Of a stretch of 64,000 nucleotides of DNA, positions 1,782 through 51,985 are shown piece by piece. The stretch's first letter is position 1; each line of letters opens with the position of its first letter. The position numbers and the translations under genes are program-made. This DNA comes from Poseidonibacter lekithochrous (GTDB lineage: Bacteria > Campylobacterota > Campylobacteria > Campylobacterales > Arcobacteraceae), in assembly GCF_013283835.1 (NCBI RefSeq), contig NZ_CP054052.1, positions 372,001 through 436,000 on the forward strand, given 5' to 3'. The notes under the pieces are model-generated. The model was not told the origin of the DNA and did no database searches. It saw nothing but the letters and a program-made list of their open reading frames with translations.

Positions 1782-3302
1782 ATGACTATGCAAACACAAA
1801 AGAGAAAAAAACGTTTAAATATGAAAGACAAGTACAAGTATATGACAAGACTTGGATGGGATACTACATATCAAAATATGGATGATGTTTTTCCAAAAGA
1901 TAAATTTGAAGGTATCAAAATTCATGATTGGGAAGCATGGGAAGATCCATTTAGAATGACTATGGATTCTTACTGGAAATACCAAGGTGAAAAAGATAAA
2001 AAACTATATGCAATTATTGATGCTTTTGCTCAAAATAATGGACAAAAAAATATCACAGATGCAAGATATGTATCAGCATTAAAATTATTCTTAACAGGTG
2101 TTTCACCATTAGAATATCAAGCTCATAGAGGTTTTGCAGATGTTGCAAGAAACTTTAGAGGTGATGGTCCAAGAGTTGCATGTCAAATGCAAGCAATTGA
2201 TGAGTTAAGACATGTTCAAACACAAATTCATACATTAAGCCACTATAACAAACACTTTAATGGTTTCTCTGAATTTGCACATTGGCATGATAGAGTTTGG
2301 TATCTTTCAGTTCCTAAATCATTCTTTGATGATGCAAGATCAGCAGGTCCATTTGAGTTTATGATTGCTATTGGATTCTCTTTTGAGTATGTATTAACAA
2401 ACCTATTATTCGTACCGTTTATGTCTGGTGCTGCTTATAATGGTGATATGGCAACAGTAACATTTGGATTCTCAGCTCAGTCTGATGAAGCAAGACATAT
2501 GACTTTAGGTCTTCAAGCGATTAAGTTCTTATTAGAGCAAGACCCTGATAATGTTCCTATTGTTCAAAAATGGATTAATAAATGGACTTGGAGAGGATAT
2601 AAAGTTCTAGGACTTGTATCAATGATGATGGATTATATGTTACCAGAATCTCCACAATCATGGAAAGAAGCTTGGGAGTTATACTTCGAAGAAAATACAG
2701 TTGCATTATTTAAAGATTTAGAGAGATATGGAATTACAATTCCTGAGTGTGCTGGTACTGTAAGTGCTGAAAAAGAACATTTATCTCACCAAATTTGGAT
2801 GACTTTCTATACACATAACGCAGCAGCACCATTCCATACATGGTTACCTGATGAAAAGAAAATGGATTGGTTAAGTGAAAAATATCCAAATACATTTGAT
2901 AAATACTATAGACCAGTATATGAGCATTGGGCAGAATTAGAAAAGCAAGGAAAGAGATATTACTCTGAAATGCTTCCTCAATTATGTCAAACTTGTCAAA
3001 TTCCAATGTTATATACAGATTGTGAAAATGATGATCCAACACAAATTGTGCATAAGCAAACAACATTTAATGGTGAAAGATTCCATTTCTGTTCAGATCA
3101 TTGTCAAGAAATATTTGAAGATGAGCCAGAAAAATATGTACAGTCTTGGTTACCAGTTCACCAAATCTTCCAAGGAAATTGTGGAGGGGCTACATTACCA
3201 GAAGTATTAAAATGGTATAAGGTTGAATTTGGACAAGACAATCTTGATTACGTAGGTTCTCAAGATGAACAAATGTGGAAACAATGGAAAGGAGAAGCTT
3301 AA
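1782..3302 (+). CDS. dmpN: Phenol hydroxylase oxygenase, alpha (diiron) subunit DmpN
   Basis: This 506-residue catalytic subunit hydroxylates phenol to catechol using O2 and electrons from DmpP. Carboxylate-bridged diiron ligands can be placed at E111, E141 and H144 (DELRH), then E202, E236 and H239 (DEARH), with the spacing of soluble diiron monooxygenases. A C-terminal zinc-type site is visible at C402, C405, C437 and C441. The length is normal and no ligand is missing, so the enzyme should be active. A strong AGGAGG site precedes the start. Substrate range cannot be read from sequence; methylphenols are plausible. Confidence 0.96.
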   Translation: MTMQTQKRKKRLNMKDKYKYMTRLGWDTTYQNMDDVFPKDKFEGIKIHDWEAWEDPFRMTMDSYWKYQGEKDKKLYAIIDAFAQNNGQKNITDARYVSALKLFLTGVSPLEYQAHRGFADVARNFRGDGPRVACQMQAIDELRHVQTQIHTLSHYNKHFNGFSEFAHWHDRVWYLSVPKSFFDDARSAGPFEFMIAIGFSFEYVLTNLLFVPFMSGAAYNGDMATVTFGFSAQSDEARHMTLGLQAIKFLLEQDPDNVPIVQKWINKWTWRGYKVLGLVSMMMDYMLPESPQSWKEAWELYFEENTVALFKDLERYGITIPECAGTVSAEKEHLSHQIWMTFYTHNAAAPFHTWLPDEKKMDWLSEKYPNTFDKYYRPVYEHWAELEKQGKRYYSEMLPQLCQTCQIPMLYTDCENDDPTQIVHKQTTFNGERFHFCSDHCQEIFEDEPEKYVQSWLPVHQIFQGNCGGATLPEVLKWYKVEFGQDNLDYVGSQDEQMWKQWKGEA

Positions 3303-3303
3303 G

Positions 3304-3666
3304 ATGGCAATAGTTACAAAAGGGGATTACCCAACAATAATGATGGATAGTGTTGATAGATTTCATGGGAACCAACTTGTATATGTAGGTTGGGATAAAC
3401 ATAAGTTAATCAACTCAGCAATGACATTTCCACTTCCTCCACAAATGCCTTTTGGGGCATTAGTGAGCGAAGTAATGCCATCTTGTTATAAAGATCATCC
3501 GGACTTTGAAAAAGTAGTATGGGATGATTCTGTTATTTGGAGATTAAATGGGGAAGTATTCACTCCTGATTTTGAAAAATCTTTAATTGATAACGGAATC
3601 GATCATAAATCTTTAGTTAGATTTGAAACACCAAATTTAACAGGATTAAATGGAGTAGGAATTTAA
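3304..3666 (+). CDS. dmpO: Phenol hydroxylase oxygenase, gamma subunit DmpO
   Basis: This 120-residue protein is the gamma subunit of the phenol hydroxylase oxygenase, with the family-like N-terminus MAIVTKGDYPTIMMDSVDRF. The ATG at 3304 is chosen over an in-frame upstream ATG at 3265, which would lie inside dmpN and add unrelated residues; AAAGGAG immediately upstream supports 3304. It begins right after the dmpN stop, and dmpP follows with 1 nt between, consistent with translational coupling. Confidence 0.93.
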   Translation: MAIVTKGDYPTIMMDSVDRFHGNQLVYVGWDKHKLINSAMTFPLPPQMPFGALVSEVMPSCYKDHPDFEKVVWDDSVIWRLNGEVFTPDFEKSLIDNGIDHKSLVRFETPNLTGLNGVGI

Positions 3667-6018: not shown

Positions 6019-6035
6019 AAACTTAAGGAGAAGAA

Positions 6036-6980
6036 ATGGGAATTATGAGAATTGGACATATTAGTATTAATGCTATTGATATTGAAGAGTCAAAAAAATA
6101 TTACACAAACGTAATGGATATGAGAATTACTCATGAAGATGAAGAGGGTAGAGTTTACCTTAAGTGTTGGGATGAGTGGGATAAATATTCAGTTGTTCTA
6201 AATCCTAGTGAGAGTGCTGGAATGAATGATATTGCTTATAAAGTTGAAAAAGATTCAGATTTAGATGAACTAGCTTTAAAACTTGAAGAGAGAGGTATCG
6301 ATACAACAATGAAAGCTGCGGAAGCAGTTCCTTTCTGTGGTAGGACTTTGAACTTCAAACTTCCTTCTGGACATGATTTTATTTTATATGCTGAAAAAGA
6401 TTTTGTTGGTAAAGATGTTGGTACTACAAATCCTGAACCATGGCCTGATGGATTAACTGGTGTTGGAACACATTGGTTAGATCATGCTTTATTAATGTGT
6501 CCTTTAGATCCTGAAAATGGAATTAATACAGTTGCACAAAATACTCAATTAATGGTTGAAGTATTTGATATGAAACTAGCTGAACAAGTAGTAGTAGGAC
6601 CTGATGGTTCTGTTCAATTAGCAACATGGTTAAGTGCTGGAAATACTCCTCATGATATCGCTTTTGTTGGTGGTCCTGAAACAGGATTACATCACTTTGC
6701 ATTCTTCTTAGATGATTGGGCAGATATTCTAAAAGCTGCTGATGTATTAGGTAAAAGAAATGTAAAAGTTGACGTTACTCCTCAAAGACATGGAATTACT
6801 AGAGGAAATACAATTTATTTCTTTGACCCATCAGGAAATAGAAATGAAACATTTGCAGGTCTTGGATATGCAGTTTATCCAGATATGCCAACAGTTACAT
6901 GGACAGAAGATGAGTTATGGAAAGGTATTTTCTACCATACAAATCAGCCTGTTGAATCATTTACAAATGTTTATACATAG
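6036..6980 (+). CDS. dmpB: Catechol 2,3-dioxygenase (extradiol)
   Basis: This 314-residue type I extradiol dioxygenase cleaves catechol to 2-hydroxymuconic semialdehyde. Two VOC-type modules are visible. By alignment to XylE, the Fe(II) ligands are H150 (WLDH), H220 (GLHH) and E271 (RNETF), with active-site H206, H252 and Y261. The spacing between the first two ligands is about 9 residues longer than in XylE. AAGGAGAA supports the ATG at 6036; an in-frame ATG at 6045 (MRIGHI) is an alternative. No key residue is missing. Confidence 0.95.
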
Positions 6981-13662: not shown

Positions 13663-14481
13663 ATGTCAAATCCAGAAATAGCAAATAATATAAATACGGG
13701 TGGTTATAATACAAATTATCATGATTTAGGTGAGGGTGAAGTAGTACTATTTATTCACGGTTCAGGTCCGGGGGTTTCAGCATATGCAAACTGGAGATTA
13801 GCAATGCCTACTCTTGCACAAAACTTTAGAGTAATAGCACCTGATATGGCAGGATTTGGTTATACGCAGAGAATAGAAGATGCCACTTATGATATGGATG
13901 TATGGGTTAAACAAGCAATTGATTTAATGGATGCTTTAAATATAGAAAAATTTAATATTGTTGGAAACTCATTTGGTGGAGCTTTAGCTTTAGCTTTAAC
14001 TATTAAATACCCTGAAAGATTAAATAAAGTAGTGCTTATGGGTGCTATGGGAATTGATTTTGAACTAACAGCAGGACTTGATCAAGCATGGGGATATACT
14101 CCTTCTTTAGAGAATATGAGATCATTACTTGATACTTTTGCATATTCAAGAGTATTAGTAACAGATGAATTAGCTCAAATGAGATATGAAGCAAGTATAA
14201 GAGAAGGTTTCCAGGAATCTTTTGGTTCTATGTTTCCTGCTCCTAGACAAAGTAGTGTAAGTGCAATGGCCTCTAATGAAGAAGATATTAAAGCTATTGA
14301 TAAAGATGTTTTAATTATTCATGGAAGAGATGATAAGGTTATTCCTTTTGAGAATTCTACTAGGTTACATAGTCTAATTGAAAAATCTCAATTACATGGT
14401 TTTGGACAATGTGGACATTGGTCTCAAATTGAACATAAAGACAGATTCAATAAATTACTTGAAGATTTCTTTTTAGTTTAA
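13663..14481 (+). CDS. dmpD: 2-hydroxymuconic semialdehyde hydrolase
   Basis: This 272-residue alpha/beta hydrolase cleaves the C-C bond of ring-fission products, releasing formate from catechol-derived semialdehyde or acetate from methylcatechol products. The triad can be read as S103 (GNSFGG), D224 (GRDDKVIP) and H252 (CGHWSQIEH). The oxyanion region is HGSGPGVSAYANW. It is the last gene of the meta operon, whereas in Pseudomonas dmpD follows dmpC. Both branches of the pathway are therefore encoded. Confidence 0.93.
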   Translation: MSNPEIANNINTGGYNTNYHDLGEGEVVLFIHGSGPGVSAYANWRLAMPTLAQNFRVIAPDMAGFGYTQRIEDATYDMDVWVKQAIDLMDALNIEKFNIVGNSFGGALALALTIKYPERLNKVVLMGAMGIDFELTAGLDQAWGYTPSLENMRSLLDTFAYSRVLVTDELAQMRYEASIREGFQESFGSMFPAPRQSSVSAMASNEEDIKAIDKDVLIIHGRDDKVIPFENSTRLHSLIEKSQLHGFGQCGHWSQIEHKDRFNKLLEDFFLV

Positions 14482-14505: not shown

Positions 14506-14540
14506 GCGATAAATTAGCGATTTGTTTTTACTAATATAAT
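14506..14540 (+). promoter_or_regulatory. Direct-repeat promoter element, copy C (intergenic)
   Basis: GCGA at 14506-14509 and 14517-14520 (11-bp period) is followed after 11 nt by TAATAT (14532-14537), which overlaps a perfect TATAAT at 14535-14540. No coding frame follows in the next 340 bp on this strand, so this promoter appears to drive a non-coding transcript or a long porin leader. Confidence 0.7.
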
Positions 14541-14546
14541 ATTTGT

Positions 14547-14740
14547 AATAGGTACAGGTATATAAGAAATAAAATATCTGAAGTTGTAGTACCTAAATAT
14601 TTTGCTTTTAAGTTCGTGTTCTCCTTTACGAATAGAATAAACTTGTGATTTTAACTATATATCACACAACTTCAGAGTTAACCTATCAAATGCTTTCTAA
14701 TACAGTACAAAATTAGCTTCCTTTTTGTACTGTATTTATT
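14547..14740 (+). ncRNA. Candidate structured small RNA of the phenol regulon
   Basis: This stretch begins just downstream of promoter copy C and holds no gene. It contains nested inverted repeats: TAGGTAC (14549-14555) with GTACCTA (14589-14595); CTGAAGTTGT (14578-14587) with ACAACTTCAG (14666-14675); TTCGT (14613-14617) with ACGAA (14628-14632); and TGTGAT (14644-14649) with ATCACA (14661-14666). The loop of the third holds GTTCTCCTTT, complementary to Shine-Dalgarno sequences. A strong hairpin closes the 3' end. Both ends are estimates. No known RNA family is recognised; it could instead be part of a long leader for the porin gene. Confidence 0.45.
14699..14740 (+). terminator. 14-bp hairpin ending the candidate small RNA
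   Basis: AATACAGTACAAAA (14699-14712) pairs perfectly with TTTTGTACTGTATT (14723-14736) around a 10-nt loop. The tail is only moderately T-rich (TATT). It sits just before promoter copy D, which suggests it insulates the upstream transcript from the porin promoter. Confidence 0.6.
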
Positions 14741-14758: not shown

Positions 14759-14790
14759 GCGATAATTTTGCGATACTTTTCCATTAGAAT
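14759..14790 (+). promoter_or_regulatory. Direct-repeat promoter element, copy D (upstream of the porin)
   Basis: GCGA at 14759-14762 and 14770-14773 (11-bp period) is followed after 11 nt by TAGAAT (14785-14790). The expected start of transcription would leave a leader of about 90 nt before the porin ATG. The early leader contains GGTACAGG (14803-14810), which also occurs at 14551-14558 just after copy C. Confidence 0.75.
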
Positions 14791-14864
14791 AGAAATTCAT
14801 AGGGTACAGGACAAAACTTTAGATAATAAAGTTATGTAGCGCGTGTTTATGTAGTCTAGTTAAA

Positions 14865-14874
14865 ATTTCGAAAT
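14865..14874 (+). promoter_or_regulatory. Palindrome before the porin ribosome-binding site
   Basis: ATTTCGAAAT is a perfect 10-bp palindrome just upstream of the AGGGAGAG ribosome-binding site. The same palindrome precedes the ribosome-binding site of the other porin gene in the window (51786-51795). It may affect translation or mRNA stability; this is inference from the shared position only. Confidence 0.4.
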
Positions 14875-14887
14875 CTAGGGAGAGTAA

Positions 14888-16048
14888 ATGAGAAAAATTA
14901 CAAAATTAAGTTTGGCAGCTGGTTTATTAGTTTCATCAAGTGCATGTGCAGACAGTTTATCTGAAGCATTCGCAAATGCAAAAGTAAAAGGTGAGATTAA
15001 AGCTCAGTATTTTGATGTAAAACCTTTAGCTGATGGTAAAAGTGATTCTATATTAGTTTTTGGTGGTAATTTAAATGTTATCACAGATTCTTTTTATGGA
15101 TTTAAAGGGGGAGTAACATTCCAAACTTCACATGTATCGGATATTTCAACTGAAGGTACAAACAACTTTGCAAATACAATGGATGCATCTGGTTCTGTAA
15201 TGTCAGAATCATATCTATCTTATACAATGTCTAATACAACAGCTAAGATTGGTAGACAGTATATTAAAACACCATTAATCGCAGGATCTGGTTCTAGAAT
15301 GATAAAACAATCTTTTGAAGGTTTTACTTTAACTAATACTGATTTACCTCAAACAAAATTAATGGCTATATATGCAGGTAAATATCAAGATAGAACAGAC
15401 GGAAATGGTGGAGCAGGTGAGTTTACTAAAAGTAAAGTAGAAGATGGTGCTTATTCTGTATTAGCTGAGAATAAATCAGTGAAAGATTTAACATTAACTT
15501 TACAGTACTTAGATGTAAAAGGTAATACATCAGCTAGTGATAAAGATGCTTTATATTTTGATGCACATTATAAAATTGCTGGAATTGATTTATCTGCTCA
15601 ATACTATGATACAACAGATAGTAATGTAGATGGTTCTATGATTGGTTTTAAAGCCTCAGGAACAATTGGTATGATCAACTTAACAGGTTTATATACAACA
15701 ACATCAGATGATGGAAAAGTATACTCAGGTGTTGGTTCAGGTGCTGATGCAGCATTTACTGCGTTACCTTTACATGGAGGAAGTGTTACTTATACAAAAG
15801 ACACTGATACTATGGTTGGAGTTGCAGCAACAAAAATTGCAGATGTATTAATGGTTGCTTATTATGGGCAAGTAAATACTGATGATGCTTCATTGCCATA
15901 TGAAAAGATTGATGCTTATGGTGGATTCTTACAATATGTTTATAATAAAAACTTTTCAGCAAAAGTTATGTACGAAAGTGCAGACTTTAACAAAGCTGCT
16001 TTAAAAGATGATGATATTCTTAGAATATATACATCTTACAAATTCTAA
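14888..16048 (+). CDS. Outer-membrane porin linked to the phenol island
   Basis: This 386-residue protein has a signal peptide (MRKITKLSLAAGLLVSSSAC) with likely cleavage after ACA at residue 21, and it ends in an aromatic residue (SYKF), as beta-barrel outer-membrane proteins do. The body is rich in alternating hydrophobic strands such as YFDAHYKIAGIDLSAQYYD. It resembles OprD-like porins of Campylobacterota. Promoter copy D ties it to the catabolic genes, so uptake of phenol or related aromatics is the likely role. Substrate specificity is inferred, not shown. Confidence 0.85.
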   Translation: MRKITKLSLAAGLLVSSSACADSLSEAFANAKVKGEIKAQYFDVKPLADGKSDSILVFGGNLNVITDSFYGFKGGVTFQTSHVSDISTEGTNNFANTMDASGSVMSESYLSYTMSNTTAKIGRQYIKTPLIAGSGSRMIKQSFEGFTLTNTDLPQTKLMAIYAGKYQDRTDGNGGAGEFTKSKVEDGAYSVLAENKSVKDLTLTLQYLDVKGNTSASDKDALYFDAHYKIAGIDLSAQYYDTTDSNVDGSMIGFKASGTIGMINLTGLYTTTSDDGKVYSGVGSGADAAFTALPLHGGSVTYTKDTDTMVGVAATKIADVLMVAYYGQVNTDDASLPYEKIDAYGGFLQYVYNKNFSAKVMYESADFNKAALKDDDILRIYTSYKF

Positions 16049-50644: not shown

Positions 50645-51772
50645 TTAGAAAGAGTATTTAACTTCAACTCTACCTCTTTGACCATCAGCGTTGTCAGAAG
50701 TAGCATTTGAATCATACTCAGCATATCTTACGTATGAAGTTAAGTTTTTAGACATTTTGTAAGTAACTTGACCTAAAATTTCTTCTACATCTTTACCAGC
50801 AGCTTTACCTTGCTCACCAGCAGCATAAGCAGCTCTTAAAGAAACTTTATCAGTTAATGCAACAGATGCATCTAAAGCAAATAATTCTAAGTCAGCTCTA
50901 TTAGATGAACCTAAGTTCCATAATAAGAATTCAGAAGCTGATTCTAACCCATCAGAGTTAGCCTGGCTATCAATTGCACCTGAACCATTATCACCAGTTT
51001 GTGCATATGTTAATTTAGCAGAAACAATTCCAGCTTTACCAGATACGTAAGCTTTTAATGTACTTCTATCATCTAATGAAGCTGCAGCTACACCAGTTTT
51101 TGAATCTAACTCAGATTCAGTATATTCAATACCGGCTTTAATCATTTCAATTGATGCATCAGCTTTGATACCAAAAGTATCAACAGTATCTTCAACAGTT
51201 GCGTATTGACCTAATAATGATACAGGACCAACGTTACCCATAGCAATTACAGAGTAAACTGCTTGTGAACCATTGTAAGAGATAGCAGATAAATCAACAT
51301 TGTGGTTAGCAAATGCAGCAGCACCAACAGTTGCAGCACCTAAGTTGTATAATGCAACCATACCGTCACCTTGAGCACCATCAGTTAATCTTCCAGGGAT
51401 ATTTTGTTGACCAGCATTAACAGTTAATGCTCCATCAGCATAAGAGAAGTAGTAATCTTCAATTTCTACGTCACCTTTACCAGATGGTGAGTTGTCTTTA
51501 TGATTACCAGCATTATCAATTTTGAATACTGCAGTAACTTTATCATTAACAGGTACTTTAACACCAATTTCAACTTCTACGTCAGAGTTAGTTTCGTTAT
51601 TTGTACTTGCTCCAGTAGTTTCACCATCAACGTTTTTTTCTTGGAATCTGAATCTGAATTGACCAGAAACATCAACACCTTTGATTGCTTCTTCTAAAGA
51701 TGCTGCATTAACGTTTGTTAATCCTGCTACTGCTACTGCTGTTACTAAACTTAATTTTGCGATTTTTTTCAT
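50645..51772 (-). CDS. MOMP-type major outer-membrane porin
   Basis: This 375-residue porin starts at ATG 51772 (MKKIAKLSLVTAVAVAGLTN, signal peptide cleaved after NVNA). The mature N-terminus ASLEEAIKGVDVSGQFRFRF strongly resembles the Campylobacter major outer-membrane protein. The C-terminus ends in an aromatic residue (VEVKYSF). An upstream in-frame ATG (51826) is rejected because it would mask the signal peptide, and AGGAGAAC precedes 51772. It is probably the general porin. Confidence 0.92.
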   Translation of the reverse strand: MKKIAKLSLVTAVAVAGLTNVNAASLEEAIKGVDVSGQFRFRFQEKNVDGETTGASTNNETNSDVEVEIGVKVPVNDKVTAVFKIDNAGNHKDNSPSGKGDVEIEDYYFSYADGALTVNAGQQNIPGRLTDGAQGDGMVALYNLGAATVGAAAFANHNVDLSAISYNGSQAVYSVIAMGNVGPVSLLGQYATVEDTVDTFGIKADASIEMIKAGIEYTESELDSKTGVAAASLDDRSTLKAYVSGKAGIVSAKLTYAQTGDNGSGAIDSQANSDGLESASEFLLWNLGSSNRADLELFALDASVALTDKVSLRAAYAAGEQGKAAGKDVEEILGQVTYKMSKNLTSYVRYAEYDSNATSDNADGQRGRVEVKYSF

Positions 51773-51785
51773 TTGTTCTCCTAAA

Positions 51786-51795
51786 ATTTCGAAAT
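51786..51795 (-). promoter_or_regulatory. Palindrome before the MOMP-type porin ribosome-binding site
   Basis: ATTTCGAAAT, the same perfect palindrome found before the phenol-island porin, lies just upstream of AGGAGAAC. The 15-mer AAAATTTCGAAATCT occurs here in inverted orientation relative to the other site. Confidence 0.4.
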
Positions 51796-51985
51796 CTATA
51801 TTCAGTTTATCGGAGCGCGCGAACAATTCAAATTTTGTTTTTGAACCTTTTCCGATATACCGTTAGAGCCATTCTACATCACTAAATTTTAAAGTTTTCT
51901 TAAAAATAGGGCAATTGTGGTTAATTAATTGTTAATTTAAGGTAGATTTTAATTAACAAGCCATTAATGCTTTGTTATTGCTATG

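Follow-up and report, generated by a model that had tools for sequence, protein, structure and literature searches.

Introduction

In the RsaE-type small RNAs of Firmicutes, a C-rich single-stranded motif blocks Shine-Dalgarno (SD) sites; these RNAs belong to a phylum other than the one studied here. The closest described systems are RepG of Helicobacter pylori, whose C/U-rich hairpin loop pairs with G-rich mRNA sites and represses (PMC8295292), FlmE/CJnc230 of Campylobacter jejuni, which carries a putative anti-SD motif (CCUU) and is expressed with the flagellar (RpoN) regulon (PMC11187230), and sX13 of Xanthomonas, an Hfq-independent RNA that uses C-rich loops on G-rich motifs, sometimes at ribosome-binding sites (PMC3771888).

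In this work we analyzed a window of 64,000 nt (the whole stretch of DNA under study) from the genome of Poseidonibacter lekithochrous and describe a candidate small RNA of ~195 nt on its plus strand (14545-14740; the spacing of the promoter predicts its 5' end and the terminal hairpin its 3' end). Like RepG, it would be a Campylobacterota small RNA with a C/U-rich hairpin loop, but the RepG loop lies in the terminator and is described as binding homopolymeric G-repeats (PMC8295292), whereas here a separate hairpin matches SD sites. With FlmE/CJnc230 it shares the Campylobacterota host, the link to a regulon and the presence of a putative anti-SD motif; the FlmE motif differs in lying in a single-stranded stretch, and FlmE itself is released from an mRNA by cleavage and serves flagella (PMC11187230). 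The sX13 RNA has three C-rich loops and belongs to another phylum, and a link to aromatic catabolism is absent from the accessible part of its description (PMC3771888). By analogy, the candidate RNA would fit the working mode of RepG, FlmE or sX13, which does not imply kinship with them; RepG was compared by description, the sequence-level comparison being confined to Rfam scans. These scans found no covariance match at gathering score in the window, and at a relaxed threshold returned only a microRNA model that matched the bare hairpin on both strands, far below its cut-off. RNAs of the CsrB type, which act as CsrA sponges, carry several GGA motifs in loops; GGA is absent from 14545-14740, which sets the candidate apart from them. 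An exposed SD-complementary sequence, as in anti-SD small RNAs, is predicted in it.

We assign a probability of roughly 0.55 to the overall reading that 14545 to ~14740 encodes a trans-acting small RNA that belongs to the aromatic (phenol) regulon and has an anti-SD loop. An OmpR-type regulator would bind the GCGAT repeat and induce this RNA along with the dmp genes and the aromatic porin, as we infer from the shared promoter. An 11-bp stem would hold or adjoin a hairpin presenting the loop UUCUCCUU, which would pair with the ribosome-binding sites of several mRNAs and lower their translation independently of Hfq. Its likeliest targets would come from within the pathway, with dmpO at the head of the list and dmpB next, and the resulting incoherent feed-forward loop would limit the pathway during induction; pairing, repression and targets are proposals of this model. 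That a small regulatory RNA gene stands beside the phenol genes is, from the sequence features given below, highly probable.

Homologues are labeled G009 (same genus) and G011 (another Arcobacteraceae genus), the present genome being G000. An Hfq gene was not found in any of these three genomes (G009 is 86% complete; the control search was positive in 5 of 14), and the candidate RNA is probably Hfq-independent. If real, it would add a post-transcriptional layer to a catabolic regulon in a group whose three searched genomes gave no Hfq gene, with a short target list. None of the best-ranked titles of the open-access literature linked an Arcobacter small RNA to phenol or to aromatic catabolism.

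The dmp cluster and the regulon promoter

At its left edge (bases 1-92) the window holds the beginning of a minus-strand gene for a two-component kinase. The phenol hydroxylase and meta-cleavage cluster runs from dmpK at 232 through dmpD, which ends at 14481. Pfam, run on six of the genes, backs dmpK, dmpL, dmpN, dmpO (PF04663), dmpB (catechol 2,3-dioxygenase-like) and dmpD (alpha/beta hydrolase); the remaining dmp names are assigned from sequence. About 235 gene-free bp lie between the operator after dmpD and a second regulon operator (14759-14774, plus strand), which by its motif would be the promoter of the aromatic porin. This OprD-family gene (14888-16048, plus strand) adjoins the RNA in all three RNA-bearing genomes. 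A porin gene with 61% identity occurs on a contig labeled Deltaproteobacteria (L092, 4300-5030), with neither operator nor RNA match upstream; we regard that contig as mis-binned or transferred.

The regulator beside the dmp operon has Response_reg and Trans_reg_C domains, and OmpR-family regulators bind direct repeats. This dmp-adjacent OmpR-type response regulator, encoded together with the kinase divergently from the hydroxylase operon, probably binds the GCGAT repeat. Similar kinase/regulator pairs were seen by eye near the pathway in G011 and in another relative, G012.

The predicted promoter of the candidate RNA consists of the operator GCGAT-N6-GCGAT, an 11-bp direct repeat (GCGATAAATTAGCGAT, 14506-14521, plus strand), and a predicted -10 box TAATAT 10 bp past it (14532-14537, plus strand); the operator/-10 spacing puts the RNA 5' end at ~14545. 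The first-pass annotation had described a third copy of the regulon promoter that drives no gene, and there is indeed an operator at 14506-14521 with no protein gene behind it. Across the whole 3.57-Mb genome the exact repeat is present at three sites (reversed control, 1). The operator of the dmp operon (157-172) is a variant with its last base changed, the exact form being present in G011. Searching 104 family genomes for the pattern GCGATWANNNNGCGAT produced 44 matches, spread over 27 of them; the reversed control produced 3. A -10 box stands at a fixed distance: counted from the operator, positions 11, 12 and 16 carry T, A and T in 86%, 91% and 91% of 43 distinct sites. At least four sites (L117, L118, L125, and L128) appear to be chance matches, with no -10 box by eye; sites away from the porin loci include some before catabolic genes. 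Judged by sequence recurrence, the regulon promoter is a real class across the family.

The third exact operator of this genome precedes a solute-binding-protein gene (L068, 7248-8023; PF00497, barely above cut-off). By eye, G038 has a similar gene after its operator and G088 has one after a near-match operator; the L068 protein may serve the aromatic regulon in sensing or uptake. In G027 (L147), tandem regulon operators at 1011 and 1141, 130 bp apart, lie upstream of a gene for a ferredoxin-like protein; the first of the two drives no gene, its start TTATAGGTATTAGTAC is faintly like the RNA start, and the arrangement is possibly a relic.

Since the stretch lies directly after dmpD and its hairpin could end the dmp transcript, it might also be a 3' untranslated region belonging to the dmp operon, terminator included, any RNA arising by processing. 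The stretch has its own regulon promoter, however, and a different gene upstream in the relatives, namely a ketopantoate-reductase gene in G011 (Pfam) and in G009 (by eye) where dmpD stands here, which makes this origin quite unlikely.

Predicted fold of the candidate RNA

Four inverted repeats of 7, 10, 5 and 6 bp had been reported in this stretch; they are present, with lengths that now read 11, 7, 5 and 6 bp. The longest forms stem P2 (14577-14587/14666-14676). The 7-bp repeat, which includes G-U (14612-14618/14627-14633), closes a hairpin at 14612-14633 predicted to display the anti-SD loop UUCUCCUU (14619-14626), and the others lie at 14645-14649/14661-14665 (5 bp) and 14548-14553/14681-14686 (6 bp). 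The terminal hairpin (14699-14736, plus strand) has 14 perfect base pairs (14699-14712/14723-14736), as had been stated, around a 10-nt loop, and with its poor U-tract (UAUUACU) it is a possible terminator. It was not called by the consensus terminator scan, whose loop limit is 8. The terminal hairpins of the two lineages (-14.4 and -11.6 kcal/mol) have a common position and unrelated sequences, and a good U-tract is absent in both.

The fold of the candidate RNA is unusual, not unique. Its z-score is -3.5, with none of 200 shuffles as stable; for G009 the value is -2.4, a stability reached by 2 of 200 shuffles, and for G011 it is -3.2. A rougher scan of the plus strand (427 windows, 40 shuffles each) gave 21 windows with z <= -3, and the one starting at 14595 was second best (-4.9); the window starting at 14545 is absent among the best 15 listed and so scored weaker than -3.12.

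The 5' segment AUAGGUAC (14548-14555, plus strand) has two alternative partners. Its AUAGGU could pair with 14589-14595 to give an H-type pseudoknot with P2, of 7 bp here and 9 bp with a G-U in G011, or it could form a nested closing helix with 14681-14686, which has 6 bp with one G-U in all three RNAs. The pseudoknot complementarity taken alone is weak: a shuffled 5' region reaches 7 bp in 515 (G000), 487 (G009) and 221 (G011) of 5000 trials.

Alternative pairing of this kind, together with the weak U-tract and the location of the RNA directly upstream of the aromatic porin in all three genomes, would also suit a long structured porin mRNA leader, in which transcription from the first promoter runs through the hairpins into the porin, the structure acts in cis as an attenuator or stability element, and the second promoter makes a short leader. 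We consider this unlikely: in all three genomes a separate copy of the regulon promoter stands between the hairpin and the porin, and a leader would have no obvious need of an exposed anti-SD loop. Among 30 porin loci, moreover, 21 have one operator within 500 bp and 6 have none, the 3 with two operators being exactly the RNA-bearing ones. A 10-nt pairing of 14648-14657 with the porin leader (14857-14866) was considered and dropped, being by eye mismatched in G009 and missing in G011.

A coding function was likewise set aside, as the ORFs within the stretch have 6-23 codons with no SD by eye. A peptide from the shared AAATGCTTTCT was rejected too, since the G000 and G011 ORFs have only their first three codons in common and G009 differs at the third. 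That shared sequence (14688-14698) lies 3' of P2 here and inside P2 in G011, as if swapped with the loop hairpin, and has one change in G009. A further stretch, UUUUGCUUUUAA (TTTTGCTTTTAA, 14600-14611, plus strand), is identical in all three RNAs, with no clear role in the fold.

Distribution and conservation

A DNA search of 150 relatives retrieved G009 at 96% identity and G011 at 73% across bases 2-130 of the query, with some shorter pieces besides. With a covariance model (R1), only G000, G009 and G011 fell below E 1e-10 among 104 family genomes; the covariance searches used stricter filters, under which weak homologues may be missed. The other listed matches were weak (E 0.027 to 0.96): of 17 examined (L074-L090), all except L084 lie inside open frames of at least 100 codons, and the operator is absent from the 3-kb loci of all 14 checked (L074-L087). 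Besides G000 and G011, the search of 398 genomes of the order returned a single match, at E 0.0125 (G408, L156), which lies outside frames of at least 100 codons and has neither operator nor TTCTCC in the 360 bases inspected. Plasmids gave no match to the RNA, and this genome contains no second copy, the best other match being 30 bp at 87%; a mobile element was discarded on the absence of copies in the own genome.

The order operator-RNA-operator-porin is common to G000, G009 and G011. Between G000 and G009 there are 5 differences in 45 nt of promoter and 8 in 21 nt of the first loop, as against 1 in 86 nt across P2, the loop hairpin and the terminal hairpin. Since the upstream genes differ, the variable left part may mark a recombination border. 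P2 is kept in G011 with a double change, its second pair being C-G here and U-A there, while G009 breaks the outermost P2 pair. RNAalifold reports 3 pairs changed on both sides, two of them in doubtfully aligned columns, and because there are three homologues only, in effect two lineages, the covariation is thin.

A convincing match in only 3 of 104 family genomes, and a tandem operator in G027 without a clear RNA, could be taken to mean that the stretch is a non-functional remnant, that is a decayed promoter duplication with chance hairpins. The stem, the loop 9-mer and a terminal hairpin are conserved across genera, though, and we think such a remnant very improbable. A more ambitious version of the small-RNA reading is speculative: it would make the candidate a new pseudoknotted RNA family of Hfq-less Arcobacteraceae and the incoherent feed-forward arm of a two-component aromatic regulon, limiting translation of dmpO (phenol hydroxylase) and dmpB (meta-cleavage), whose effector hairpin moved between genera while its loop was kept.

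The anti-Shine-Dalgarno loop

The loop sequence GTTCTCCTTT, given for 14618-14627 in the first-pass annotation, occupies exactly those positions, and UUCUCCUU within it is the complement of a AAGGAGAA-type SD site. Computed unpaired probabilities of UUCUCCUU are 0.88-1.0 in G000 and G009 and 0.33-0.94 in G011 (global fold), whose whole-molecule minimum-energy fold arranges the loop region otherwise. TTCTCCTTT lies in an apical hairpin loop of all three RNAs, on unrelated stems: the loop hairpin is inside P2 in G000 (stem GUUCGUG/UACGAAU) and in G009, whereas G011 keeps the 9-mer UUCUCCUUU at a different place, 3' of P2, in a hairpin with the stem AUGAA/UUCAU. Among 20,000 dinucleotide-shuffled versions of the G011 RNA, only 29 contain the 9-mer TTCTCCTTT. 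The loop keeps its sequence while stem and place change, and this is the strongest argument for it being the working part. Against 45 gene starts of the window, the loop as probe had a mean duplex energy of -7.2, better than any of 300 shuffled loops (mean -5.6). On these computed features, the odds lean slightly toward a candidate RNA that acts by its loop. The part of the earlier proposal that places a candidate RNA gene behind the phenol-regulon promoter and gives it an exposed anti-SD loop is supported, with conservation in another genus (G011).

Candidate targets

Duplex energies of the loop were computed for 123 automatic gene starts in G000 and 74 in G011, which cover the examined stretches of these genomes. 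The best G000 partner is a gene in L171 (-14.4).

The target first put forward was the general porin MOMP, which the RNA would chiefly serve to lower during induction of the aromatic porin. Bases 14617-14625 are exactly complementary, over 9 nt, to AGGAGAACA ahead of the MOMP start (51770-51782, minus strand, ATG at 51772). This perfect 9-bp pairing at the SD (-13.7 kcal/mol) is the best among the 45 hand-picked starts and second among the 123 automatic ones, with 9 of 300 shuffled loops as good against the hand-picked set. In G011 the pairing drops from 9 to 7 bp (-9.3 kcal/mol, rank 15 of 74). Among the 123 starts, 40 of 400 shuffled loops were as good (-13.7), and the MOMP SD is alike in five same-genus genomes without an RNA match (AGGAGAAC in three, AGGAGAAT in two). 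The claim of the general porin as a particular target is not supported by these comparisons, and MOMP repression as the main job seems improbable to us. Speaking for MOMP, AGGAGAACA in the genome stands close before an ATG at only 3 gene-like sites, those of MOMP, an RraA-like protein and one other protein. AGGAGAAC with an ATG within 9 nt occurs 11 times, below the 14 of the reversed control; 6 of the 11 sites, MOMP included, have open frames of more than 100 codons, and the other 5 stop after 8-11 codons.

The dmpO gene (start 3304), overlooked in the first-pass annotation, has a 9-bp loop match as long as that of MOMP. Its SD AAAGGAGAA with the start codon (3288-3306, plus strand) overlaps the coding end of dmpN and is the same in G009. 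It ranks 3 of 123 in G000 (-11.8 kcal/mol) and 1 of 74 in G011 (12 contiguous pairs with two G-U, -17.6 kcal/mol; next best, -11.8), ranks to be read in the knowledge that dmpO was chosen after ranking and that orthologous SDs are not independent. Among the 74 G011 starts, 1 of 400 shuffled loops reached -17.6; against dmpO alone, 4 of 2000 (G011) and 57 of 2000 (G000) were as good. Also in favour of dmpO, it came only 14th in G011 and 10th in G000 when the 16S tail was the probe. Of 22 dmpO rows from genomes without an RNA match, 4 bind the G000 loop as well as its own dmpO does, which, like the overlap with dmpN, speaks against a special role of dmpO; none reaches -17.6 with the G011 loop, and the dmpO sites of the five closest relatives (G012, G027, G030, G040, and G082) are weaker, at -4.9 to -9.8. 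The second candidate in the pathway is dmpB, whose SD and start lie at 6025-6038 (plus strand); it carries AAGGAGAA, in agreement with the match reported earlier, and ranks fourth in both G000 (-11.0) and G011 (-10.9).

By complementarity, dmpO appears to be a more consistent partner than MOMP. As the most consistent partner lies in the same regulon as the RNA, an incoherent feed-forward loop is suggested. That dmpO or dmpB is a real target we advance tentatively and with considerable doubt.

The MOMP leader and promoter drew our attention for a separate reason. In the segment 51773-51900 of the window (minus strand; L100-L106), mean column identity is 86% over 7 Arcobacteraceae genomes, and the leader is conserved even in G011, whose MOMP protein is only 34% identical. 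Paired arms are predicted in it, UGUCGG/CCGACA, with two both-sided changes, and GUUCAAA/UUUGAAU, around an invariant GUUCGCGCGCUCCG plus a AUUUCGAAAU palindrome; the RNAalifold covariation term is slightly unfavourable (+0.66). From this model, the MOMP leader is possibly an unrecognised cis-acting RNA. The leaders of the aromatic porin (14820-14887) and of MOMP (51773-51810) share GCGCG and a ATTTCGAAAT stretch before the SD.
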